A program made the translations under genes and the position numbers. A DNA stretch of 25,646 nucleotides, taken from a virus. The DNA is taken from positions 1 through 25,646 of the IMG/VR virus record IMGVR_UViG_3300035698_005670; one strand, 5' to 3'. Below, one piece after another: positions 1-23,897 of this stretch (position 1 is the stretch's first letter; each line of letters opens with the position of its first letter). The notes under the pieces are model-generated. The model ran no database searches. It saw only the letters and a list, made by a program, of their open reading frames with translations, and was not told where the DNA came from.

Positions 1-204
1 CCCCAGTTAGGTTAGCCTCAAATAGGTTAGCCCCAGTTAGGTTAGCCTCAGTTAGGTTAGCCTCAAATAGGTTAGCCCCAGTTAGGTTAGCCTCAGTTAG
101 GTTAGCCTTAGATAGGTCAGACTCAGATAGGTTAGCCTCAGATAGGTTAGCCTTAAATAGGTTAGCCCCAGTTAGGTTAGCCTCAGTTAGGTTAGCCTTA
201 GATT
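1..204. repeat. 15-bp tandem repeats coding for pentapeptides
   Basis: Thirteen 15-bp units in register, for example cctcagttaggttag, cctcaaataggttag and ccccagttaggttag, with few substitutions. A higher-order 45-bp unit (three repeats) is exactly duplicated at 16-60 and 61-105 and appears once more with one mismatch at 151-195. The unit length is five codons of the leftward pentapeptide-repeat gene, so the array is explained by coding. Such near-identity suggests recent expansion by slippage or recombination. Confidence 0.95.
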
Positions 205-355
205 CTATTGCTTCAATAACAGCATCCCTTACATTATCTTTAGTAGATACATAAATTTCACTTTCATCATACCTATTGCGAATAATATAACCTTTCTCTT
301 TTGTTTCTTCATCAGAAACATATTTTTTAAGAGCTTCTTTTTTACTTAGTTTCAT
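1..355 (-). CDS. Pentapeptide-repeat protein, 3' end cut by window edge
   Basis: Open from the ATG at 355 leftward off the window with no stop. About 50 charged residues (start [12 protein letters not shown]) lead into at least 13 perfect five-residue repeats of the form A-(N/D)-L-(T/S/F)-(E/G/K), such as [10 protein letters not shown] and ANLFE. This is the A(D/N)LXX signature of the pentapeptide-repeat family, which folds as a right-handed quadrilateral beta-helix with the Leu side chains stacked inside. Some family members mimic DNA and bind gyrase (Qnr, MfpA); most have no known role, and nothing here decides the function. An in-frame ATG at 409 would add 18 residues. I prefer 355 because it is preceded by the A-rich ACT context seen before several other genes here. 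It is the last gene seen of the leftward early block. Confidence 0.88.
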
Positions 356-413
356 AGTTTTTTTTAATTTATAATTTACTTTCTTTTGTGTTGGGTTAGG
401 GTTATTCATTGTC

Positions 414-8184: not shown

Positions 8185-8709
8185 ATGACCTTTCAACCAG
8201 TGAAGCTAAAATACAAGGTTAAGAATTATGATTACCCCAATAAGGATGCTAGATGGATTGATAAGGATAGTGGATTGAGAAAGAATATGGATGGAACTCT
8301 TGAACGCCCTAAGTTTTTAAAACAGAACCATAAAGGTGCTTTGACTAAAACCAAGAAAAAGATTGCAGCTAAATTAATGTATGAAGCTGGATGGGGAAGC
8401 AGAGATTTAAAGGACTGGTTTAAGACTTCACAACCAACTATTGTTAATTGGTCTAAGCTTCCTACCCCTGAAGCATTAAAAGAATGGGAAACTAACTTCA
8501 AAGCTGCAATGATGGATTACGATATGGAAGCTCATTATAAGATTAAGAGTAGAATTATGGAGATTGTTCCTGAAGAGAAGAATATAGATAAGCTAGTTAA
8601 AGCTGGTGAATTCTTTCGTGGGGAGAGTACCAAGAGAAGTGGAAATAATACCCAAGTTAATATTTATGCCGATATGCTTAAGAAGTATCGGAATGTGGAG
8701 GACCAATGA
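8185..8709 (+). CDS. Probable terminase small subunit
   Basis: 174 residues. A basic N-terminus (KTKKKIAAKLMYEAGWGSRDLKDWFKTSQPTIVNWSKLP, about 55-92) reads as a helix-turn-helix DNA-binding domain. A helical middle (about 95-150) fits the oligomerisation part, and the end NNTQVNIYADMLKKYRNVEDQ resembles the C-termini of many phage small terminases. TerS binds the packaging site and hands DNA to the large subunit. It is the first late gene, although five sugar-modifying genes separate it from the large terminase, an unusual split. The DNA-binding class is clear; the terminase call is mainly from position and layout. Confidence 0.65.
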   Translation: MTFQPVKLKYKVKNYDYPNKDARWIDKDSGLRKNMDGTLERPKFLKQNHKGALTKTKKKIAAKLMYEAGWGSRDLKDWFKTSQPTIVNWSKLPTPEALKEWETNFKAAMMDYDMEAHYKIKSRIMEIVPEEKNIDKLVKAGEFFRGESTKRSGNNTQVNIYADMLKKYRNVEDQ

Positions 8710-9446
8710 GAACAACAATAATAATCCTCAATTATAATGGTGACAAATGGATGCCAGAACTGATGAAGGCTTTAAAGAAAGAAGATTGTAGAGTTCTAGT
8801 TGTAGACAACGGTTCTTCTGATGATTCAAGGAAGTTTGCTGATGCTGACCTTGGTGTTAATTGGGGTTATGCAATGGGAAACAATATCGGTGCTGCTTTG
8901 GCTAATTCTGAGAATTTACTCTTTATGAATAACGATATGCTTCCGAAGACTAAAGGCTTTGTCAAAATACTAGAAGGTGTCTGTAATAGTAGTTACCCGA
9001 TTGTAGGAGTTAAACTAATATTCGGAGAAACTAAGAAAATAGATGTTAATGGTCTTGAATATATAACTACTGAAAATAAGGTTCAACACGCTGGTATTGG
9101 TATTACTAGAAACTTCTGTCCTACTGAGATTGGAAAAGGTTTTGATATTGATTATCCTCCAGTTAATATTCCTAAAGAAGTTCCTGGAGTTACTGGAGCT
9201 TGTATGATGATAAAAAAAGACCTATTCGTTAAGTTGAGGGGTTTTAATAATCAGTTCTTCAATGGTTATGAAGATGTTGACCTATGTTGGAGAGCTAAAG
9301 AGATGGGTTACAAGATTTGGTATGAACCAACTGTTGAACTTCTCCATTACTGTTCTTCCTCAAAAGGAAGATTTGATAACGAAGTAGAAAACCAAAAATT
9401 ATTAAAAGACCTCTGGTCAGAGGAGAGAGTTAAAAAAATATTATGA
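8706..9446 (+). CDS. Family-2 glycosyltransferase
   Basis: 246 residues with a GT-A fold: IIILNYNGD at the start, LVVDNGSSDDS (31-41) for nucleotide-sugar binding, NND (75-77) in the DXD position, GVTGACMMIKKDLF and NGYEDVDLCWRAKEMGYKIWYEP near the C-terminus (acceptor/catalytic region). This combination is that of rhamnosyltransferase-like GT2 enzymes, which move a sugar from an activated nucleotide to an acceptor. No membrane segment or signal, so it acts in the cytoplasm. It has a good ribosome site (GTGGAGGACC) and its ATG overlaps the upstream stop as ATGA. Sugar and acceptor cannot be told. Confidence 0.88.
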   Translation: MRTTIIILNYNGDKWMPELMKALKKEDCRVLVVDNGSSDDSRKFADADLGVNWGYAMGNNIGAALANSENLLFMNNDMLPKTKGFVKILEGVCNSSYPIVGVKLIFGETKKIDVNGLEYITTENKVQHAGIGITRNFCPTEIGKGFDIDYPPVNIPKEVPGVTGACMMIKKDLFVKLRGFNNQFFNGYEDVDLCWRAKEMGYKIWYEPTVELLHYCSSSKGRFDNEVENQKLLKDLWSEERVKKIL

Positions 9447-10276
9447 TTTCAATAATTATCCCCACTTACAATAGAAAGACAAACCTTAGAAGAGTATTCG
9501 CTTCACTAGATAAACAATCCTTTAAAGACTTTGAGGTAATAATCTCTGACGATGGTTCCACTGATGGAACTATGGATGTTGTAAATGAGTATCAAGATAA
9601 GTTAAATATTCGTTACTATTGGAAACCTAACCATGGATTTATGGCTCCAGTAGTTAGAAACATGGGAGCTAGGTTAGCTATAGGAGATTTCTTCTTATTC
9701 CTAGATTCTGATGTTATGTTAAATCCAGCTGCACTTTCTCATTACAGTGCTTTTGCTGTTGCCAATCCAGATGCAGTAATCATTGGAAGATATGATTGGC
9801 TAGAACCAATGGATTTTTCTGTTCACGATGTTTATTCCAGTTGGGATAAGTTAATCAAAAACGATCTTATGAAAGTTAATGTTACTCAATTAAAAGGAAT
9901 AGTTGGACCAGACCCAAGAGCAATAGCTTTTAATGACCAATTAGTTGAACATTATTGTTTGGGGATGTTCAGCGGTAATGTTTTAATTCCAAAGCAAGTA
10001 TATGACGATTTAGGTGGGTTTGATGAAGCTATGGTCGGACATGGTGGTGAAGACTGTGAGTTTGCTATGAGAATTGAACAAGCTGGTTATAAAGCTATTT
10101 TTACTGAAAAAACTATTGGGTATCATATTTACCATGATAGAAACCAAGAGAGAAATCAAGAAGAGGTTACTAAAAATTTAAAATATATTTATGAGAAACA
10201 TCATGACTTCATGGTCAAGGTTGGTATTCTTCCAGGGAATATAAATAAGGGGGAGTTACCATTAGTGCAGAATTGA
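9443..10276 (+). CDS. Family-2 glycosyltransferase
   Basis: 277 residues. IIIPTYNRKTNLRRVFASL opens a GT-A domain; SDDGSTDGT (35-43) and the metal-binding DSD (88-90, FLFLDSDVML) are intact. A C-terminal part with GGFDEAMVGHGGEDCEFAMRIEQAGYKA resembles the galactosyltransferase-type C-terminal motif found in GT2 polymerase-like enzymes. Cytoplasmic, no membrane helix. The ATG overlaps the stop of the preceding glycosyltransferase as ATGA, so the two are coupled. It is distinct in sequence from its neighbour, so they probably add different sugars. Confidence 0.9.
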   Translation: MISIIIPTYNRKTNLRRVFASLDKQSFKDFEVIISDDGSTDGTMDVVNEYQDKLNIRYYWKPNHGFMAPVVRNMGARLAIGDFFLFLDSDVMLNPAALSHYSAFAVANPDAVIIGRYDWLEPMDFSVHDVYSSWDKLIKNDLMKVNVTQLKGIVGPDPRAIAFNDQLVEHYCLGMFSGNVLIPKQVYDDLGGFDEAMVGHGGEDCEFAMRIEQAGYKAIFTEKTIGYHIYHDRNQERNQEEVTKNLKYIYEKHHDFMVKVGILPGNINKGELPLVQN

Positions 10277-10764
10277 TACTACTAGATTTAGGTGGTGGAA
10301 ACGAACCACATATGGAAGAGGGTTATAAAACTATCTCAACTGATAGATATGACTTCAGCAAAGACTTTGAGAAGTTAGATGCTAGTTTTATTCAACATGA
10401 CATTCTTACTCCTATTCCTTTGGTCTATGATTCTGTTGATAAAATCTGGTGTCACCATGTCTTTGAACATTTACCCCATCAATTACCAACTGGTGAAGAT
10501 GCTCTAGTATTCGCAATGAATGAAATAGGTAGAGTTCTTAAAAAAGATTGTGAAGCTCACATTATTGTTCCTTGGGTAGAACATACTAATGCTTGGAGAC
10601 ATCCAGGTCATTACCGTTACTTTAACTATGATATTTTTAATTGGTTTGACCATAGGAACCCTACTCCTGACCATGAAGCCTATGGCTATGTTCATAAAAT
10701 GGAACTAATTAGAAACGAAGTTGTGGATGACTGCCACATTTATACTATTTTTAAAGGATTATGA
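10273..10764 (+). CDS. SAM-dependent methyltransferase (class I)
   Basis: 163 residues. It starts at a TTG overlapping the upstream TGA, since no ATG lies before the motif-I segment ILLDLGGGNEPH (about 2-13). An acidic strand end (STDRYD) fits motif II, and IWCHHVFEHLPH (about 58-69) with MNEIGRVLKK and EAHIIVPW fits the type-11 methyltransferase pattern. Phage relatives of this kind sit beside glycosyltransferases. The likely substrate is a sugar or glycan; a DNA or protein substrate is not excluded. The protein is short, with little beyond the core fold, so a partner may supply specificity. Confidence 0.82.
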   Translation: MILLDLGGGNEPHMEEGYKTISTDRYDFSKDFEKLDASFIQHDILTPIPLVYDSVDKIWCHHVFEHLPHQLPTGEDALVFAMNEIGRVLKKDCEAHIIVPWVEHTNAWRHPGHYRYFNYDIFNWFDHRNPTPDHEAYGYVHKMELIRNEVVDDCHIYTIFKGL

Positions 10765-11321
10765 TAAAAGACGAAAGAGCAATCTGCGATAAGAAAGCTA
10801 AATGGGATAAAGACTGGGAGGGAGTTAAAGACATCTACTTCTGGAGATTAAGATGGCATTATTTTGCTGTTGCTGAAAAATTAAAAGGTGAAGTTTGTGA
10901 TTTAGGTTGTGGACTAGGATTCTTAGCTGGATTCACAAAGCCAGATGAATCATTTTATACTGGCGTAGACATTTCTAAGGTTGGAACAGACCATGGAAGG
11001 ATGCTTTTTCCAGCAGCTAGGTTCTTTGAAGCAGATTTATCCAAAGAAAGAACAACTTTTGATGATAATTCCTTTGATACTGTAGTTATGAGTGAAATTA
11101 TTGAGCATTTAGAAGATTTTTCCTTATTATTAAAGGAAGCTAGAAGAATTACCAGAGATAGAATCGTTATCACCGTTCCAACTAATATGTATCAAGAGGA
11201 TCATGTCTATCCTGTTTGGACTGAACAAGACATTAGAAGAGAGTTTAAAGAACTTGGCTTCATTGAATCAATAGAAACTGATAAAACTTATAAATTTCAC
11301 CTAATATGTATCAAAAAATAG
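10761..11321 (+). CDS. SAM-dependent methyltransferase (class I)
   Basis: 186 residues. VCDLGCGLGFLAGF (about 45-58) is motif I, YTGVDIS gives the acidic residue after strand 2, FEADLSKERTTFDDNSFDTVVMSEIIEHLED covers motifs post-I to IV, and ARRITRDRIVITVP is the strand-5 region. It is a full ubiE/type-11-like fold. The ribosome site AAAGGATT precedes an ATG that overlaps the previous stop. It carries its own N-terminal helix (KWDKDWEGVKDIYFWRLRWHYFAVAEKL). With the neighbouring glycosyltransferases, sugar O-methylation is the likeliest reaction, but this is inference. Confidence 0.88.
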   Translation: MIKDERAICDKKAKWDKDWEGVKDIYFWRLRWHYFAVAEKLKGEVCDLGCGLGFLAGFTKPDESFYTGVDISKVGTDHGRMLFPAARFFEADLSKERTTFDDNSFDTVVMSEIIEHLEDFSLLLKEARRITRDRIVITVPTNMYQEDHVYPVWTEQDIRREFKELGFIESIETDKTYKFHLICIKK

Positions 11322-11968
11322 CATCTCTAATCGTTTTAGCTTATGAAAGACCTGAATTTCTCCATAAAACTATGGAATCACTACTTTCAGTTCCAATGGG
11401 ATTTCCAGCAGAGATAATTGTCCACAATGATGGCTCTACTAACCCAGAAGTGTTTGACTATTTGGTTCATTTAGCTGCTGAAAAGAAGATTTCAATGTTT
11501 ATTAACAACTGTGGACCTAATCAAGGTATTGAAAAAGCAATTAAAAGGTCAATCGCCTGTTCTTCTGGTAAATATATTGTAAAACTTGATTGTGATTTAG
11601 AATTTACCCCAAATTGGTTGAAGAAAGCTGTTTATACGATAGAAGAAGGTAAATTTGCAACAGTAGGACTTGTTGATTATAGAAGATATGACCCAGATGA
11701 TGAAAGATTTTATGGAGTTACTGAAAAAGATGGATTTTTAGAAGTTACTGACTTTATTTCTTCAGCTTACATCTTCACTAGAAAGATTTTTGATACTTGG
11801 GGTGATTATATGGCTCACGATGGTTGGCATCTTTTTCTCCTAGAAGAAGGGTATACACTTGGTTTAATAGATGTAGTTAATAATTATGGTTTTGGACTAG
11901 GAAAATCAATTTATGTCGGAGAAGACGGAAAAGCGATTAAAATGGACCACGAATCACTAAAATTCTAA
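11306..11968 (+). CDS. Family-2 glycosyltransferase
   Basis: 220 residues, GT-A fold. IVLAYERPEFLHKTMESLL at the start, VHNDGSTNPE (39-48) for nucleotide binding, and KLDCDLEF (93-100) with DCD as the metal motif. It lacks a large C-terminal domain, so it is on the short side for GT2. The ATG lies 16 bases inside the end of the methyltransferase gene and has no clear ribosome site. It ends in TAATG, which also starts the large terminase. This tight packing puts the sugar genes in the same transcript as packaging genes. Confidence 0.88.
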   Translation: MYQKIASLIVLAYERPEFLHKTMESLLSVPMGFPAEIIVHNDGSTNPEVFDYLVHLAAEKKISMFINNCGPNQGIEKAIKRSIACSSGKYIVKLDCDLEFTPNWLKKAVYTIEEGKFATVGLVDYRRYDPDDERFYGVTEKDGFLEVTDFISSAYIFTRKIFDTWGDYMAHDGWHLFLLEEGYTLGLIDVVNNYGFGLGKSIYVGEDGKAIKMDHESLKF

Positions 11969-13527
11969 TGGATAATAAAAAACTTAAAATAAAAGAAGTA
12001 ATAGAGACCTCTTTCCCTATTATTAACAAAGAATCGCAAGAAGTTCCTTTTCTTCTTAATAAAGCACAGCAAAGATTCATGGAAAATATGACTGGATGGG
12101 ATGAGATTCTAAAAGCACGACAAGAAGGGTTTTCTTCTTTCATTATTGCGTTGTTTACTTACGATTTCCTTTTTAAACCGAACTCAATTTCAATGTCTTT
12201 ATCTTATGAGAGTGGAGCAGCTGAAAAACTACTTGATAAAGCAAAGCTCTACATTAAAAAAATAGGAGTTCCTCTAAAATACAACTCTCGTAACGAAATG
12301 TATAACGAAGCTATTGGATCAACTTTCTATATTGGAACAGCAGCAGCAGTTACTACAGGGCGAGGACAGACAATAAACAATCTTCATGCTTCTGAGGTAG
12401 CTTTCTATCGTGATGCCGACAAACTAATGACTGGTTTACTACAATCTGTTCCTAAAAGTGGAAGAGTAATACTAGAATCAACCGCTAATGGAATGGGAGA
12501 CTATTTCCATAGGAATTGGGTTGAAGGTGTAAATGGAAATGGAGCTTTTGCTCCTCACTTCTTCTCTTGGAAAGACCACGAAGAATACCAGCTTCCTGTT
12601 GATAGACATTTCAAACCTAATTCTGAAGAAACTCAAGAAATGATTGAATACGGATTGAGTAAAGAACAAGTTGCTTGGAAAAGAGAAAAGGTAAAACAAT
12701 TCAAGACTATTGACGAATTTAATCAAGAATACCCAATGACACCAGAAATTGCTTTCATTTCTTCTGGAAACCCAGCATTTGATGTCAAAGTCTTAACTTC
12801 AATGTTAAAGATTGCTGACAAACCTATAAAAACTGGAAACTTAATCGGAACTAGAACAAGATTGATGTTAGAAGAAAATGCTAAAGGTTATTTAGATATA
12901 TGGAAAATGCCTGACAGCAATGACAGTTATGTTATCGGAGCTGATGTTGCTCAAGTTAATGACTATTCTGTGGCAGAAGTTCTTAGTAGAAACAAAATGG
13001 AAGTGGTAGCAAGATTTAGAGCAAGACTACCAGTTGATGCTTTTGCGAAAGAACTAGAACGGTTAGCCTATTTCTACAATACTGCTCTCCTCGGTGTAGA
13101 AAGAAATAACCAAGGTATAGCCGTTCTTGTTGTTTTGAATAAGCTTTACTATCCAAATATGTATTACCGAGAAGATGTTAATGATGTCGGAGAAAGTTCA
13201 GCATCAAAACTTGGTTGGGATACTAATATTAGAACCAGACCTATCTTAATCTCTGACCTTGGAATGTATATTAGAAACAGAGATATTGTTATTCACGATG
13301 AAATTACTTTAAGAGAATTAACTACTTTTGTTAGAACTGATAAGAAACCAGATGGAGAAGCTCAACCAGGAACTCACGATGATTGTGTCATGGCTTTAGG
13401 AATTGCTGTCCAAATGTATCGTAGGTTTCCAGATGCTAATAAAAATGAATACGTCACCCATGCTGGTGGCACCAACAACATTGCAAATAATTATGATACT
13501 AGAAGCAGTAGTTTTGATAATTATTAA
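11968..13527 (+). CDS. Terminase large subunit
   Basis: 519 residues. The N-terminal ATPase has a Walker-A-like LKARQEGFSS (about 49-58) and Walker B with catalytic Glu in NNLHASEVAFYRD (E143). The C-terminal RNaseH-like nuclease has its acidic residues in VIGADVAQ (D326), GVERNNQG (E378) and THDDCVMAL (D471/D472). This is a complete terminase motor that packages DNA into the prohead and cuts it. The start overlaps the upstream stop in TAATG with no ribosome site. The family branch (headful or cohesive-end) cannot be told by eye. Confidence 0.95.
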   Translation: MDNKKLKIKEVIETSFPIINKESQEVPFLLNKAQQRFMENMTGWDEILKARQEGFSSFIIALFTYDFLFKPNSISMSLSYESGAAEKLLDKAKLYIKKIGVPLKYNSRNEMYNEAIGSTFYIGTAAAVTTGRGQTINNLHASEVAFYRDADKLMTGLLQSVPKSGRVILESTANGMGDYFHRNWVEGVNGNGAFAPHFFSWKDHEEYQLPVDRHFKPNSEETQEMIEYGLSKEQVAWKREKVKQFKTIDEFNQEYPMTPEIAFISSGNPAFDVKVLTSMLKIADKPIKTGNLIGTRTRLMLEENAKGYLDIWKMPDSNDSYVIGADVAQVNDYSVAEVLSRNKMEVVARFRARLPVDAFAKELERLAYFYNTALLGVERNNQGIAVLVVLNKLYYPNMYYREDVNDVGESSASKLGWDTNIRTRPILISDLGMYIRNRDIVIHDEITLRELTTFVRTDKKPDGEAQPGTHDDCVMALGIAVQMYRRFPDANKNEYVTHAGGTNNIANNYDTRSSSFDNY

Positions 13528-13761: not shown

Positions 13762-15620
13762 TGGCAACAAAAGAAGAACAACTAGCACAAGATTTAATTC
13801 AAGCAGAAACTGTTGATGAAGGCTTAGTAATAGAAGGTGATGAAGTAATTGATTCAAAAACCGAGAAACTTGAGAAGAAATTACCTATGGGTTTTTTAGA
13901 CTTAGCTGAATTCCAAAGAAACTTCTCTACAGATAAAGACAATAGACAATATGTTGATTGGGCTTGGTTTATTTACGATAACTATGTAAAAGGAAACCAT
14001 TTCATTAAATACAATGACATTACTCAAATGGTTGAAGCTGTTAAGGCTGGTAGTAGCTCTCGCTTTGCTATTAACAAGATTTGGACAACTTTAAGGTCAG
14101 TCCGAGGATTCGTTACTAAATATGACCCTAAGTGGTATATTTATCCTGAAAATGTTTCAAAAGAAGCCATAGATAAAGCTCACTACAAACAAAAGGTTTT
14201 AGATGACAGATGGATTTTTGGAAAGCTTAAAATGTTAACCAAACAATCTGTTTTTCAAGGATTAAAGTATTCAATCGGTATTATTGAGATTGTCTGGAAC
14301 CCTGAAGAAAGAGATGTTAATTATGTTGTTTTAGACCCATACGAAGTTTATTTTGGTGGTCCAGCTTATCCAAACTGCACTAGAGTAACTAAAACTGTTT
14401 GGAGAACTCAAGATGCTATTGAAAATGATCCTAAGTATAAAAAACAAGTTGGTGATTTAGGAACTACTGACAATGAATATGTTTCCACTTGGAGACAAAC
14501 ATTAGATGATACTACTTATGGACACCAGAACCGTTCAGAAAATGACAAAGGAACTATTGTTTATGAACAACACTATTACACTTCAAAAGAAAACTCTGTT
14601 GGTGGTCATGTAAATATTGCCACTTATACTAATTCTGCGTTCTTAAGACACGTAGAAACTAAAGAAAAATCTCTATGGGATACGTTCCATCTTTATAAGA
14701 CTGACGATAATCCTGGCGAGACTTACGGCGAGGGTTGGGTTAAGAATCTTATACCACCTCAAAAGATGTTAGACATCTTAGAAAGTGTCACTTCTGAGTA
14801 CCATTTCACCTTTGCAAAAGGGAGATACGTTGTCTCCAAGAACTCTGGTGCAAAAATCATTAATAATGAAAATGGAACTATAATTGAACACAACCCTGGT
14901 CGTAGACCTATAGTTGAAAATGCTCCTTCAATGGCAGCATCAGTTGATAATCAAATTAATCGTATAAATGTTTATCTTGAGGATATCGGCGGGCAGCACG
15001 ATGCTTCACTTGGAAGAATCCCAACAGGAGCAACTGCTGGAGTAGCTATTGAAGCTCTACAAGAAGGTGATGCCAATAACTTAAAAGACTTAGTTGAAAA
15101 CTACAATATGTTCTTAACTGGACTTGCTTATGGAACTTTTAAGAAATATGCAAGGAATTTAACTGAAACTAAAATATTCACTACTGATGACAAAGATAAA
15201 GATGGTATTCCAGATTTCTTTGCTATTGTCGGTGAAATCGGAGCTGAAAATGCTCCAGAAGAAGTTACCCATCAAGGTAAACTAATTCCTGTTTGTGTAA
15301 TTAGAGAAAACGAAAAAGTCAGAATAACTATTGATAGTTGGTTAGCTTATACAAGAGAAGCAAGAGAAGCTAGAATTTATAAGCATTATACTGCTGGAAT
15401 GATTTCACGAAGAGCTGCATTAGAAGCACTTGAATATGGTGACGTTGACAGAATTATAGGAGATGCCATTAAAGAAGAAGTTGTTTCTAAAATGATAAAA
15501 GAAGGTCCAGCCGAACAAGAACCAGTTAATAATGAAGGTGCGGAACAGGTAGCACCTCCAGAAACCGATACTGCTGGAGCTATGAGTGAAGGTGCTGGAA
15601 TTCCTATGCCTGGTATTTAA
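13761..15620 (+). CDS. Portal protein
   Basis: 619 residues. The gene directly follows the terminase and precedes scaffold and coat genes. The sequence shows the stem/wing-type pattern of phage portals: SRFAINKIWTTLRSVRGFVTKYDPKWYIYPE, YKQKVLDDRWIFGKLKMLTKQSVFQGLKYSIGIIEIVWNPE, YVVLDPYEVYFGG, then a long helix-rich C-terminal half with GATAGVAIEALQEGDANNL and an acidic, Pro/Gly-rich tail. The dodecameric portal is the DNA channel of the head. Length is in the normal range for large portals of short-tailed phages. No catalytic motifs are expected. Confidence 0.88.
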   Translation: MATKEEQLAQDLIQAETVDEGLVIEGDEVIDSKTEKLEKKLPMGFLDLAEFQRNFSTDKDNRQYVDWAWFIYDNYVKGNHFIKYNDITQMVEAVKAGSSSRFAINKIWTTLRSVRGFVTKYDPKWYIYPENVSKEAIDKAHYKQKVLDDRWIFGKLKMLTKQSVFQGLKYSIGIIEIVWNPEERDVNYVVLDPYEVYFGGPAYPNCTRVTKTVWRTQDAIENDPKYKKQVGDLGTTDNEYVSTWRQTLDDTTYGHQNRSENDKGTIVYEQHYYTSKENSVGGHVNIATYTNSAFLRHVETKEKSLWDTFHLYKTDDNPGETYGEGWVKNLIPPQKMLDILESVTSEYHFTFAKGRYVVSKNSGAKIINNENGTIIEHNPGRRPIVENAPSMAASVDNQINRINVYLEDIGGQHDASLGRIPTGATAGVAIEALQEGDANNLKDLVENYNMFLTGLAYGTFKKYARNLTETKIFTTDDKDKDGIPDFFAIVGEIGAENAPEEVTHQGKLIPVCVIRENEKVRITIDSWLAYTREAREARIYKHYTAGMISRRAALEALEYGDVDRIIGDAIKEEVVSKMIKEGPAEQEPVNNEGAEQVAPPETDTAGAMSEGAGIPMPGI

Positions 15621-17218
15621 TGAGTAAAGAAGAACTTCAAATACTTATTCAAAAATATTTTGGGAGTTATTCTGATGAAGCATATTTAACTGTTGATGGT
15701 GAAAATGGTGGATGGAATCCTACTGTTAAAGATAATATCAATAGCGATGGAACTTCAGATAGAGGTTTATTCCAAATAAATGAAGAAACATTCAATGATT
15801 TAAAAAAGAGAAAACCTACTCTTTTCGCTAAATATGGAATTAACACATACCAAGAGATGTTTGACCCTGAAAAGAACATCATTGTTGCTAGAATAAATTT
15901 TAATGAAGGTGGTTGGGATAGATGGTATGGTTCACCTGAAGAACAAAGAACTGGTAGACCAGATGAACCTTATTACACAAATAATACTGAAAGCATAGAA
16001 GCTCCTTCTGTTTTAGGTGCTAATGAAACAACACCAACACCAACTCCAACTCCACAAGAACAAGATATTAGAGAGGTTGCTCCTGGAGTAACTGTGAATA
16101 TGGCAACTGAAGAAGGAAGAAGGATTGCTGAAAGAGAAAGTTCAAAAGAAAAACCTGAAGATTCTTCATATAGTGCCGCTAAAGGAATACAGGAATCTTA
16201 TAACAAATCTATAAAAAACATTATCCCTTGGGCTAGACCTATCGCTAAATTATTTAAACCTAAACCAGCTTTTAGTGCTGAAGCTGAAGTAACGGAGCCA
16301 GAACTTGAAGGAATTAACTTAAATTTTCTTGAAAAAGTTAAAGTAACCCAAAAGTTTGGAAACAAAGCATTTGAGTTTTATGGACCTAATGGACACGAAG
16401 GTACTGATTTCAGAGCAGCTATTGGAACACCTATTAAAGGTTTCGCTGGTTGGGTAGTTGATTTTGCTGGTGTTGCTGAAGGATATTATGGAAATAAAAT
16501 AGTATTAAGAAATCCTAAAACAAATGAAGCTATTGAATATGCTCACTTAAAAGACTTAGGTGTCAAGAAAGGTGATGTTTTAACTTCAGGACAAATAATA
16601 GGAACAAGTGGAAATAGTGGTAGAAGACCAGATGGAAAAACTCAAGATGCTCATTTACACGTAAACTATTATTCTCCAGACCAAAAGAAAGGAAATATTT
16701 TAGCTGTTGCAGACAAAGAGTTTGGACAGTTCCCAATGGTTCCATCATTCAGTTCAGTAATGGGTAAAGCTAAAGAAATAGTGACAGGTACTTTTATTCC
16801 TAAAGAAGCTAAAGCTGAAGGTGAACCATCACCAAGCCCAGTTCCAACACCTACACAACCTCAGGATATTCCTGTTGGTGCAAATGTTGATTCTTATATT
16901 GGGAAGAACATCGGAACTTATCAAATAAAATCTGGTGATACTTTAAATGCTCTTGCTAGACAATTTAAAACAACTGTTGCTGACTTTCAAAGACAAAACC
17001 CAAACATCACTAACCCAAATCTAATTAGAGCTGGTGAATCATTAAAGATTCCATCTGCTCCTACTGAAACAAACAAAAGCTCTGGTTATAGAATAAGAAG
17101 TGGAGACACTTTAACCTCTATTGCTAGAAATCTTGGAACCTCTGTAAATGACCTTGTAAGAAAGAATGATATTCAGAACCCTAACTTAATAAGGGCTGGA
17201 GATTCACTTAAGATATAG
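15620..17218 (+). CDS. Three-domain peptidoglycan hydrolase (transglycosylase-like, M23 peptidase, two LysM)
   Basis: 532 residues. (1) About 1-115: lytic-transglycosylase/lysozyme-like, with VDGENGGWNP (E28 the probable catalytic acid) and SDRGLFQINEETF. (2) A PT-rich linker and spacer to about 235. (3) About 240-355: M23 zinc endopeptidase, with ligands H259 and D263 in GHEGTDF and H345/H347 in AHLHV. (4) Another PT/PS-rich linker, then LysM repeats at about 431-477 and 488-532 (QIKSGDTLNALARQF, RIRSGDTLTSIARNL). It can thus cut both glycan and peptide and bind the wall. No signal peptide, so it would need a holin or be packaged in the virion; position between portal and scaffold favours a virion-associated enzyme, but an endolysin is also possible. 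Confidence 0.9.
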   Translation: MSKEELQILIQKYFGSYSDEAYLTVDGENGGWNPTVKDNINSDGTSDRGLFQINEETFNDLKKRKPTLFAKYGINTYQEMFDPEKNIIVARINFNEGGWDRWYGSPEEQRTGRPDEPYYTNNTESIEAPSVLGANETTPTPTPTPQEQDIREVAPGVTVNMATEEGRRIAERESSKEKPEDSSYSAAKGIQESYNKSIKNIIPWARPIAKLFKPKPAFSAEAEVTEPELEGINLNFLEKVKVTQKFGNKAFEFYGPNGHEGTDFRAAIGTPIKGFAGWVVDFAGVAEGYYGNKIVLRNPKTNEAIEYAHLKDLGVKKGDVLTSGQIIGTSGNSGRRPDGKTQDAHLHVNYYSPDQKKGNILAVADKEFGQFPMVPSFSSVMGKAKEIVTGTFIPKEAKAEGEPSPSPVPTPTQPQDIPVGANVDSYIGKNIGTYQIKSGDTLNALARQFKTTVADFQRQNPNITNPNLIRAGESLKIPSAPTETNKSSGYRIRSGDTLTSIARNLGTSVNDLVRKNDIQNPNLIRAGDSLKI

Positions 17219-17224
17219 TTAGTT

Positions 17225-17254
17225 TTGACTTTCACTACCATTGTGTTACATAAT
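17225..17254 (+). promoter_or_regulatory. Candidate promoter for the scaffold/capsid transcript
   Basis: TTGACT (17225-17230), 18 bases, CATAAT (17249-17254). If used, it gives an untranslated leader of about 150-160 bases that contains the hairpin at 17285-17347. It is unlike the other late promoters, which sit right against their ATG. Confidence 0.45.
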
Positions 17255-17284
17255 CAATTAAGCACTTTAACTTGTCGTTCAGTT

Positions 17285-17347
17285 CGTAGGTTGGATCCTA
17301 GGTAATATTTTAACTCCTTTTTAATATTTCCTAGACTTTAACCTACG
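17285..17347 (+). other. Structured leader with competing hairpins
   Basis: CGTAGGTT (17285-17292) pairs with AACCTACG (17340-17347). Inside, CTAGG (17298-17302) pairs with CCTAG (17330-17334) and AATATT (17304-17309) with AATATT (17323-17328), leaving a T-rich loop. The right outer arm (ACCTAC, 17341-17346) can instead pair with GTAGGT (17359-17364), so two structures exclude each other. No immediate T-run, so not a plain terminator. Candidate RNA switch, processing site or mRNA stabiliser upstream of the capsid genes. Confidence 0.6.
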
Positions 17348-17418
17348 AAAGGGAAATAGTAGGTCATTAATAATTTTTCCACCGCCACCCAGCTGCGTTA
17401 ATGAGGGTAAACAAAATT

Positions 17419-18105
17419 ATGAAAGATGTAAAAAACAAAGAGGAAACAGTAATCCTAATTGACCCATCAGTCAAAAAAGAAACTGATTTAGAAGAAGGTA
17501 AGACAACTCCTCTCAGTAATGAAGAGAAAGAAGGTCTGTTAAAAGAAATCAAGCTTGAACGCGATAAGCGTCACGCACTTGAAGATAAAGTAACAGCTCT
17601 TGAGAACAAACCAGAACCTGAAGTAACTCCCAAATCCAACCAAGAAGAAAATTATGATGTTGAAACAGCCGTTGATAATCTTACTCCTATTCTTAAAAGG
17701 CGTGGTTTTATTACCAGGCAAGAACAGGAAGATGATAAAAGAGCCGACCAATACGCCAAAGACTTGAAAGTTTTATCTGACAAGTATGATGGTAAAGATG
17801 GTAGACCCGTATTTGATTCTAACGAGATTGCTAATCACGCTAAGAAAACATCTAATTTTAATCTTGAAGCTGTTTATCGTGACCTTCACTGGAAGGAACT
17901 TGTTGACTTTGAAAAGAGACAATCTGGTTCCGAAAGTATTGAGACCGAAAGACCGTCTTCTACACGTACTATTCATGAGGGTGAAAGAGTTCCTTTAACT
18001 AGAGAATTCTTGAAAAAGCGACTAGCTGATCCTGATGGTAAAGAATGGTATGAAAAGAACCGCGATAAAATAAAGGCTGCTATGGCTAAAGGACAATTAC
18101 AATAA
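17419..18105 (+). CDS. Probable capsid scaffolding protein
   Basis: 228 residues from the ATG at 17419; the frame also has an ATG at 17401. I prefer 17419 because TAAACAAAATT before it resembles the A/T stretch before the coat gene. The protein is highly charged, with a coiled-coil segment (EEKEGLLKEIKLERDKRHALEDKVTALENK), a Pro/Glu linker, and a basic C-terminal end (REFLKKRLADPDGKEWYEKNRDKIKAAMAKG). Position just before the coat gene, charge and helical build are those of scaffolds that guide shell assembly and then leave; the basic C-terminus would contact the coat protein. No protease motif is visible. Confidence 0.78.
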   Translation: MKDVKNKEETVILIDPSVKKETDLEEGKTTPLSNEEKEGLLKEIKLERDKRHALEDKVTALENKPEPEVTPKSNQEENYDVETAVDNLTPILKRRGFITRQEQEDDKRADQYAKDLKVLSDKYDGKDGRPVFDSNEIANHAKKTSNFNLEAVYRDLHWKELVDFEKRQSGSESIETERPSSTRTIHEGERVPLTREFLKKRLADPDGKEWYEKNRDKIKAAMAKGQLQ

Positions 18106-18141: not shown

Positions 18142-19014
18142 ATGACAGATATAAATCCTATCAGTCCAACAACCGCTGCCGTCTTCATTCCAGAAGTATG
18201 GTCAGCTGACATTTTAAGAGCAACTGAGGCTAACTTAGTTTTTGCTACTAAAGTGAAAAGATATGACTCTGATGTTTCCAAATTCGGAGACATTATTCAT
18301 ATTCCAAATTTATCAAATTTAACCGCTAACAACAAAGTTGTCGGTGACTCTGTAACACCTCAGTATCCTACTGAGAGTGAAAAGACAATCACCATCAACC
18401 TTCATAAAGAAGCTTCCTTCTATATTGATGACGTAGCCAAGGTCCAATCAAAATACGACCTTATGGGTGAATATACCTCCAAAGCTGGATATGCTATTGC
18501 GAAAGCAATTGACACTTCCGTTGCTGGTCTATACGCTGGTCTTACTCAATATGTTGGAGATGGTTCCACTGATGTCACTGACGCAAACATCATAACAGCT
18601 ATCAAATATCTTGATGAAGCGGATGCTCCTGAAAGTGATAGATTTTTCGTTATTAACCCAGCGGCTAAAGCTGACCTCATGGCAATTGATAAATTCGTGC
18701 TAAGAACAGGTCCAGGTTGGTCCACAGATAATTCTCCTATACTTCACGGTGCTAAAGAGAATGGTTTCTGGGGTGACATTTATGGTGTAAAGGTTTACGT
18801 CTCTACTAACGTAGTTACTGAATCAGCATCTCCAAATGTTGTTCACAATTTACTTTTTCATAAAGAAGCTTTCGGTTTAGCTATTCAGCTTAACCCAAGA
18901 ACTCAGTCAGACTACGAACTAAAGTATTTGGCTCATCTTGTTGTTTGTGATGTCCTTTACGGATTAAGCGAACTTAGAGACGATTTTGCTGTAGACTTCC
19001 GAACAGCTGCTTAA
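18142..19014 (+). CDS. Major capsid protein
   Basis: 290 residues. The sequence has the pattern of a HK97-fold coat protein of the P22/phage-coat type: FIPEVWSADILRATEANLVFATKV, then a segment like the E-loop (GDIIHIPNLSNLTANN...), KTITINLHKEASFYIDDVAKVQSKYDLMGEYTSKAGYAIAKAIDTSV for the spine helix region, RFFVINPAAKADLMAIDKFV, then NGFWGDIYGVKVYVSTNV and FHKEAFGLAIQ. Position after a scaffold and before a strong terminator, plus its own promoter, fit a highly expressed shell protein. No separate head-maturation protease is seen nearby. The start has an A/T-rich lead and no Shine-Dalgarno site. Confidence 0.88.
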   Translation: MTDINPISPTTAAVFIPEVWSADILRATEANLVFATKVKRYDSDVSKFGDIIHIPNLSNLTANNKVVGDSVTPQYPTESEKTITINLHKEASFYIDDVAKVQSKYDLMGEYTSKAGYAIAKAIDTSVAGLYAGLTQYVGDGSTDVTDANIITAIKYLDEADAPESDRFFVINPAAKADLMAIDKFVLRTGPGWSTDNSPILHGAKENGFWGDIYGVKVYVSTNVVTESASPNVVHNLLFHKEAFGLAIQLNPRTQSDYELKYLAHLVVCDVLYGLSELRDDFAVDFRTAA

Positions 19015-19085: not shown

Positions 19086-19757
19086 ATGAAAGAGAAGATT
19101 GGAGTGGTCCTTCCTTCCAGAGGGCTTGTCTTTTCCAAGACCATGGAAAGTGTTTTTACTAATACTGTTGGTAAAAATTTTCACCTCTACATGGCTCACG
19201 ACTTACCTCTTCCTGAATGTTTCAACGAACCCCTTAATAGAGCTTTAGATGATGATTGTGATTTAATTTGGTTTGTTGAAGAAGATATGCTTATTCCTGA
19301 AGGAACTTTAGATAAAATGCTTGAGGAGTATAGAAATGGATTTATGGCTGTCTCTAGTGAATATGCTGACAGGAGAACTGGTAAGACTTTAGTTCAAAGA
19401 ACCAGAAAAGGAAAAGTTCTATATTCTGGGATGGGTTGTCTCTTAATCCATAAGGATATTCTTAAAAAGATAGGTCATCCAATAATAAGAAGATGTGTCT
19501 TTTGGATTAAAGAAGATGAAGAGACTGGAGAAGTTTTCTTTGAACCACATCCAGAAATCAAAAGCAGTAGCTATGGAACTCAAGATGTTTGGTTGAGCCA
19601 CAATATCACTAAACAAGGTCATGAGATAAAGTTAGTTGAGGTAGAGATAGGACACATGATGCTAGAAAAAATGTCTAAAGATATAGTGAACAATGGTCAA
19701 CACAAAATAAAAACTGTTTACATTTTAGATAAATTTAAACCAAATGGAGAAAAGTAA
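19086..19757 (+). CDS. Glycosyltransferase-like protein (GT-A fold)
   Basis: 223 residues. It starts like a GT-A enzyme (KIGVVLPSRGLVFSKTMESVF), with LIWFVEEDMLIPEGTLDKML (about 60-79) carrying EED in place of the DXD metal motif. Later come AVSSEYADRR, SGMGCLLIHKDILKKIG and SSYGTQDVWLSHNITKQGHEIKLV, which fit the acceptor region of small GT2-like enzymes found in phages. It differs from the three glycosyltransferases upstream. It is placed after the capsid terminator and has its own promoter. EED rather than DXD is a mild oddity that could still bind metal. Confidence 0.78.
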   Translation: MKEKIGVVLPSRGLVFSKTMESVFTNTVGKNFHLYMAHDLPLPECFNEPLNRALDDDCDLIWFVEEDMLIPEGTLDKMLEEYRNGFMAVSSEYADRRTGKTLVQRTRKGKVLYSGMGCLLIHKDILKKIGHPIIRRCVFWIKEDEETGEVFFEPHPEIKSSSYGTQDVWLSHNITKQGHEIKLVEVEIGHMMLEKMSKDIVNNGQHKIKTVYILDKFKPNGEK

Positions 19758-19758
19758 T

Positions 19759-20199
19759 ATGGATACTGCCATCCAGAAGAAGATTACTGAATATAAACAA
19801 AAACACATACCAAAGCCACTATATGTAGTAGAAATAGGTTCCCACAATTATGACGGAGTTAAGAGAAGTATGTTTGATGATGCTGATAACTTTTGTGAAA
19901 TAAGTAATGAGAGAGGACCAGGAATAGATATTGTTCATGGCTACGATGATATTGATAGACTTTTTGACTTTAACCCTGATGTAATAATTTGCTTAGATGT
20001 TCTCTGTAAAAAAGCAAATTGTAAGAAGATAATAAACGCAGTAAGAGAGACACTTATGCCTGGAGGGTATCTAATATTGAGCTTTAAAAATGAAGGAGAA
20101 GGATCATACATTGATGCCTTTTTTAATGGATATGAAGTTTTTGACGTAAGTACCGTAGAAAGAACCATTTGCGGAATAGCTAGAAAACCACTAAAATAA
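19759..20199 (+). CDS. Small SAM-dependent methyltransferase
   Basis: 146 residues from the ATG at 19759, just after the upstream stop and behind GGAGAAAAG; the alternative ATG at 19744 overlaps the previous gene. YVVEIGSHNYDG is motif I, although the usual GxGxG is reduced to GSHNYDG. FCEISNERGPGIDIVHGYDDI follows, then DVIICLDVLCKK and MPGGYLILSFKNEGEG, which match a class-I fold. It pairs with the preceding glycosyltransferase, repeating the theme of the first sugar cluster. Weakened motif I could mean low or no activity, or a divergent substrate. Confidence 0.75.
   Translation: MDTAIQKKITEYKQKHIPKPLYVVEIGSHNYDGVKRSMFDDADNFCEISNERGPGIDIVHGYDDIDRLFDFNPDVIICLDVLCKKANCKKIINAVRETLMPGGYLILSFKNEGEGSYIDAFFNGYEVFDVSTVERTICGIARKPLK
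20169..20197 (+). promoter_or_regulatory. Late promoter, predicted leaderless
   Basis: TTGCGG (20169-20174), exactly 17 bases, TAAAAT (20192-20197), five bases before the ATG at 20203. It overlaps the end of the methyltransferase gene. The -10-to-ATG layout is the same as at 23902. Confidence 0.55.

Positions 20200-21038: not shown

Positions 21039-23897
<2,859 letters not shown>

Follow-up and report, generated by a model that had tools for sequence, protein, structure and literature searches.

To our knowledge, virion glycosylation in tailed phages has been demonstrated mainly in a few actinobacteriophages. The present analysis concerns a 25.6 kb metagenome fragment (IMG/VR virus record IMGVR_UViG_3300035698_005670, positions 1 to 25,646; the whole stretch is hereafter the window), in which four glycosyltransferases (GTs) and three S-adenosylmethionine (SAM) methyltransferases (MTs) are encoded among the head genes. 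We propose that these seven enzymes probably glycosylate a virion protein and cap the glycan with methyl groups, the major capsid protein (MCP) being the favoured acceptor. According to the summaries in two later papers (PMC11256854, PMC12363180), the MCP of phage Che8 is glycosylated and gp110 has been reported as essential for this (Freeman et al. 2023). The phage GTs of Che8, Corndog and Myrna, one of which is fused to an MT domain (Che8 gp108), are described as glycosylating capsid and tail-tube proteins. In the cluster J mycobacteriophages, 8-10 genes of unknown role, many of them GTs and MTs, are located between the MCP and the connector genes (Pope et al. 2013, PMC3706429), and this gap has the composition GT-kinase-MT-GT-GT-GT. 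The archaeal turrivirus STIV has a glycosylated MCP and an essential, small soluble GT-A enzyme, A197, the acceptor of which is unproven (PMC10551542); its capsid is not related to that of the window. In the chlorovirus PBCV-1 (A064R/Vp54), cytosolic virus-encoded GTs are accompanied by a predicted O-methylation of the capsid glycan, as would be the case here, although PBCV-1 is a eukaryotic virus with early expression and other enzyme families (PMC5408694).

The decisive gene in the window is GT_D (19086..19757, plus strand), which directly follows the MCP gene (18142..19014, plus strand; phrog_267, E value 4e-51; PF25209, E value 1e-9). Together with MT_C (19744..20199, plus strand) it forms a second pair of sugar genes, located between the MCP and adaptor genes, which was overlooked in the first-pass annotation of the window. 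No Pfam, PHROG or NCBIfam model matches GT_D (Pfam none even at an E value of 10), and a PF00535 scan of the related loci does not detect it. The GT_D family profile matches one PDB sequence only, that of STIV A197 (2c0n; E value 7e-4). The AlphaFold2 (AF2) model of GT_D (pLDDT 86) has structural matches that are nearly all GT-A glycosyltransferases (Z 14-16.5), including TarP and the collagen GTs LH3/COLGALT1, and the best of these is again A197 (Z 16.5 over 167 residues, 2.8 A), which shares 18% identity with GT_D. Within the family, E65 and D67 of an EED motif and G164 and D167 of a G-x-x-D motif are invariant, while H190 is nearly so. The modelled fold, the acidic metal-binding motif, and the conserved GxD and His residues thus point to a GT-A enzyme. 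The match of MT_C to PF13489 (E value 1e-3) is below the cut-off, and its AF2 model, which is of moderate confidence (pLDDT 74.5), has a predicted SAM-methyltransferase fold (NodS, 3ofk; E value 3e-6), so that the assignment is by fold. MT_C also adjoins GT_D in L005, L076 and L153 (L numbers denote related loci).

These loci were gathered via matches to the MCP and the large terminase subunit (TerL), plus a second structural protein; a single-sequence TerL search of IMG/VR gave no relatives, and a TerL alignment as query did. With the clade defined as those loci with an MCP score of at least 331 bits, a GT_D orthologue is present 72-1000 bp after the MCP gene in 19 clade loci besides the window (counting L153, whose MCP is partial). 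The 19 include at least two near-identical pairs, and the lowest identity to the window copy is 23%. GT_D is lacking, despite enough downstream sequence, in L082 and in L075/L086, which are one contig, and five clade loci end before its position; among more distant MCP relatives it is in place only in L117. GT_D distance follows MCP distance (rho 0.66, reached in 0 of 500 permutations; the portal-MCP rho is 0.85), as expected of co-inherited head genes. In relatives, a small, often Zn-ribbon-like protein is encoded between MCP and GT_D (L005:10894-11274, L076:6102-6452, L153:409-756, L021:10375-10707, L017:8041-8274 and L007:10677-10916) and is absent in the window. Its conserved end resembles SRxxxxDGxxLxGxxG, and it could be either a capsid-associated protein or a glycan acceptor.

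Outside the clade, GT_D homologues are located directly after the MCP gene, in some cases separated from it by a single small gene, in the isolated Microcystis phage Mel-JY34 (a cyanophage), in the complete environmental phages MW202711, MW202496 and MW202462 from Manatee Spring, and in the cluster J mycobacteriophages Wanda and Thibault. The window GT_D as a tblastn query found nothing in phages, whereas the copies from its relatives did find homologues; in a profile-profile comparison GT_D matches Wanda gp15 with an E value of 6e-8. The window-based MCP profile matches the MCP of Wanda (E value 2e-10) and does not match those of Mel-JY34 or the three Manatee Spring phages. In the methanogen virus vir323, a GT_D homologue is present within the structural module, and a collagen-like tail gene lies two genes downstream of this homologue. 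Anabaena phage A-4L, which has the best MCP match among isolated phages, has no GT following its MCP, and the matches in the cyanomyophages S-SCSM2R and DSL-LC03 were set aside, being located near baseplate genes and not adjacent to the MCP.

Among the closest described systems, cluster J (Omega, Thibault, Wanda) resembles the window in having GT and SAM-methyltransferase genes right after the MCP gene, the first of which, Wanda gp15, is distantly related to GT_D, and the chondroitin-synthase-like GT Omega gp16 parallels GT_B of the window (see below). It differs in that these are Mycobacterium siphoviruses with a single post-MCP cluster, with kinase and Zn-protease genes that the window lacks, and with no cassette between the terminase genes. 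No significant match was found between GT_B and Wanda gp19 or between MT_B and Wanda gp17. A chain of relationships, each link of it based on sequence, may connect the window to a proven system: GT_D is distantly related to Wanda gp15, gp15 and gp20 belong to one cluster, and gp20 shares 70% identity with Che8 gp109, the gene of which is situated between gp108 and gp110. Che8 itself has its GT genes at the genome end, outside the head operon, unlike cluster J and the window, in which GT and MT genes are in or beside it. The podophage ctQWt234 from Manatee Spring (MW202801) also carries a GT, an MT and other sugar-type genes between the MCP and a stabilization gene; unlike the window it adds radical SAM, PhyH and NodB-like genes, and no GT_D orthologue was detected in it. 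This other head-module sugar cluster (L002:18315-22978) has the order radical SAM, GT, PhyH, MT, NodB-like and GT. The seven-gene system is of a known kind, and new in its arrangement and host range.

The first-pass annotation had described five sugar-modifying genes with overlapping starts at 8706-11968, between the small (TerS) and large terminase genes, as a possible virion glycosylation system. The open reading frames (ORFs) and Pfam matches agree with this gene content, and virion glycosylation is the best-supported reading, strengthened by GT_D and MT_C. The flanking gene downstream is TerL (11968..13527, plus strand; phrog_2, E value 3e-25), which begins at the last base of the final cassette ORF; that upstream (8185..8709, plus strand) matches no family and is probably TerS, judged from its position and a 62% identical orthologue at the same place in L005. 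The cassette lies end to end on the plus strand and comprises three GT2 enzymes and two SAM methyltransferases. GT_A (8706..9446; PF00535, E value 2.6e-9; PF02709, E value 6e-7) contains NND, ED and H motifs. GT_B (9443..10276; PF00535, E value 6.7e-27) resembles the GalNAc-transferase domain of chondroitin synthase, its DSD and GGED motifs aligning with those of PDB 2z87 (E value 1.2e-34). MT_A (10273..10764, TTG start; PF08241, E value 3e-4) barely exceeds the curated cut-off, with 21.8 versus 21.2 bits, and MT_B (10761..11321; PF08241, E value 9e-13) reaches 49 bits and has a weak match (E value 7e-9) to the mycofactocin oligosaccharide methyltransferase MftM. GT_C (11306..11968; PF00535, E value 1.9e-16) is the last of the five. 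The PF00535 scores of GT_A, GT_B and GT_C (37.7, 94.9 and 60.9 bits) all exceed the curated cut-off of 23.3, and thus all five proteins belong to their families by profile.

The order TerS-GT_A-GT_B-MT_A-MT_B-GT_C-TerL-portal is repeated in L005, and therefore is no accident of assembly. The cassette genes share 54-69% identity between the two loci (GT_A 54%, GT_B 65%, MT_A 69%, GT_C 62%), and TerL, portal and MCP show 78%, 71% and 65%, respectively; the cassette is therefore conserved about as well as the adjacent structural genes. GT_B and GT_C scans of IMG/VR gave L005 alone, so that either the exact five-gene cassette is rare there or the search pattern was too strict. In L006 and L153, two loci of one sample (3300031227) that share a 156 bp overlap at 98.7% and probably represent a single virus population, GT_D and TerL share 63% and 66% identity with those of the window, and the slot between TerS and TerL is occupied by a GT4-GT2 fusion and an AAA-kinase/MT fusion in place of the five genes. 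GT or GT/MT genes are also present upstream of TerL in L007/L099, L079 and L081. Thus the terminase-proximal slot is a variable GT/MT site, and GT_D is the constant part.

The identities and order of the genes, the retention of GT_D beside the MCP gene and the replacement of the cassette are direct observations; from these we infer late expression, the enzyme activities, the acceptor, the order of steps, the linkage and the benefit as follows. The seven enzymes would be soluble cytosolic proteins, produced late along with those of the head, and would attach a methylated glycan to a virion protein. That protein is most likely the MCP, a target proposed from synteny alone. The host would supply SAM and also the nucleotide sugars, for whose synthesis no genes are seen in the window. 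GT_D, as the constant enzyme beside the capsid gene, probably carries out the first step or has the capsid protein as its direct acceptor. Extension or branching of the glycan would fall to GT_A, GT_B and GT_C, and its capping by methylation to MT_A, MT_B and MT_C. The cassette would be a swappable module that determines the type of glycan, and the benefit may be shielding or altered adsorption. A tie between glycosylation and methylation is indicated by fused genes: in L104 a single gene (16176-17522), three genes past the presumed MCP, joins GT-A-like and SAM-methyltransferase-like domains, the same pairing as in GT_D/MT_C and Che8 gp108.

Several points weigh against this proposal. Although A197 heads the list of GT_D fold matches, many GT-A folds are tied within about 1-2 Z of it. 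The GT_D profile matches neither gp110 nor gp109 of Che8, and because GT_D lacks homology to gp110 the link to the proven system passes via Wanda. Late co-expression does not determine a substrate, the window is a metagenome fragment, and DNA or host glycans could be the substrate of the terminase-proximal cassette, given the DNA methylases and ParB proteins found beside such genes in L079 and L099.

The last point leads to the alternative of DNA hypermodification, in which the cassette would place a glycan on modified bases just before packaging as a protection against restriction, whether or not GT_D has the capsid as its substrate. We regard this as unlikely. DNA-glycosylating phage GTs are known (cited in PMC12619734), and a location beside the packaging genes would fit. 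Upstream of TerL in L079 (560-4890) is a possible DNA hypermodification cluster, with a C5-cytosine methylase (E value 3e-87), two ParB_N proteins, a weak match to a TET-associated GT and a radical SAM enzyme, near tandem GT2 and MT genes; in L099 a DNA methylase-ParB protein is followed by GTs. However, no DNA methylase, ParB, TET/JBP or thymidylate synthase was found in the window, L005 or L006, which are fragments (the TET search was made without a positive control), and no C5 methylase in the GT_D-bearing Mel-JY34 and MW202496 (both complete) or G016 (50.9 kb). The position of GT_D beside the MCP would also be left unexplained. The first-pass annotation had named both DNA modification and host-surface change as alternatives; the former is retained for the cassette, and the latter is less likely.

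Alteration of the host surface polysaccharide, for receptor masking or superinfection exclusion, is in our view quite improbable. The GT2 enzymes are similar to the polysaccharide GTs EpsD, TuaG and WcaA, GT_B and GT_C match PHROGs named as GtrB-like O-antigen conversion, and soluble phage GTs such as TarP modify wall teichoic acid. Gtr O-antigen conversion, however, employs a GtrA flippase, a membrane-anchored GtrB and a Gtr, a set that the window genes do not make up: they include no polyprenyl-phosphate GT, no flippase-like gene was seen among the late-strand proteins, and none of the seven soluble enzymes has a membrane-like segment (maximum 19-residue hydropathy 1.2), unlike the Gtr converters. 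The late operon placement within the head genes likewise argues against this reading, as does the constant position that GT_D takes behind the MCP gene across many phages of distant relationship.

The target proposed in the first-pass annotation, a BclA-like glycosylation of the GPT-rich collagen-like fibre (22503-23897), is very unlikely: the fibre is genuine (PF01391, E value 1.7e-35) and shares the late operon, vir323 holds both a GT_D-like gene and a collagen-like tail gene, and LH3/COLGALT1 appear among the fold matches, but those matches are generic and GT_D is linked in position to the MCP. Outside the clade, six of seven complete records of phages with a GT_D-type gene (Mel-JY34, MW202711, MW202496, MW202462, Wanda and Thibault) gave no collagen match, nor did two 50.9 kb clade contigs. 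The suggested survey for co-occurrence with collagen thus gave no support among GT_D carriers, with vir323 as exception; as regards the five-gene cassette, the contigs of the closest relatives end before the fibre.

Returning to glycosylation of the virion, a broader proposal can be put forward tentatively: GT_D may represent a capsid-dedicated GT family kept beside the MCP across phages of very different hosts, possibly including a methanogen virus, so that capsid glycosylation would be old and widespread in tailed phages, and exchange of the cassette would switch glycan type in a serotype-like manner. The decoration has been proven in some mycobacterium viruses, and the present comparison suggests that it is far more widespread. 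The conserved MCP-GT_D pair predicts glycosylated capsids in podoviruses, in the cultured cyanophage Mel-JY34 and possibly in archaeal viruses, and it points to the gene for testing. If true, this would bear on phage stability, immune recognition, adsorption and the choice of therapy phages.

The remaining genes of the window divide by strand. Early genes are on the minus strand, with profile matches to Prim-Pol/DnaB-type helicase and Cas4-like exonuclease. The late plus-strand operon runs from the probable TerS through the five sugar genes to TerL, a P22-type portal (PF16510, E value 3e-9), a lysin-like protein, the scaffold and the MCP, and then through GT_D and MT_C to an SU10-like adaptor (PF24175, below cut-off), the second structural protein and the collagen fibre. 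The TerL matches on genome contigs are all at most 34% identical and scattered over many phyla, and no host can be assigned. The lysin-like protein (15620-17218) contains SLT, M23 peptidase and two LysM domains; located between portal and scaffold, outside any lysis module, it is perhaps a virion-associated peptidoglycan hydrolase. At positions 2-409 (minus strand) is the start of a pentapeptide-repeat protein with A-N-L-x-x repeats, truncated by the window edge. Finally, the TerL or MCP genes of several relatives appear interrupted: L021 (3250-5208) has an intein domain (PF14890) in the expected TerL frame, L099 (7334-9961) an enlarged TerL frame of 875 aa, and L117 (2665-5145), L087 (13726-15514) and L027 (3902-5465) split genes, which suggests that phages of this group harbour inteins or introns.

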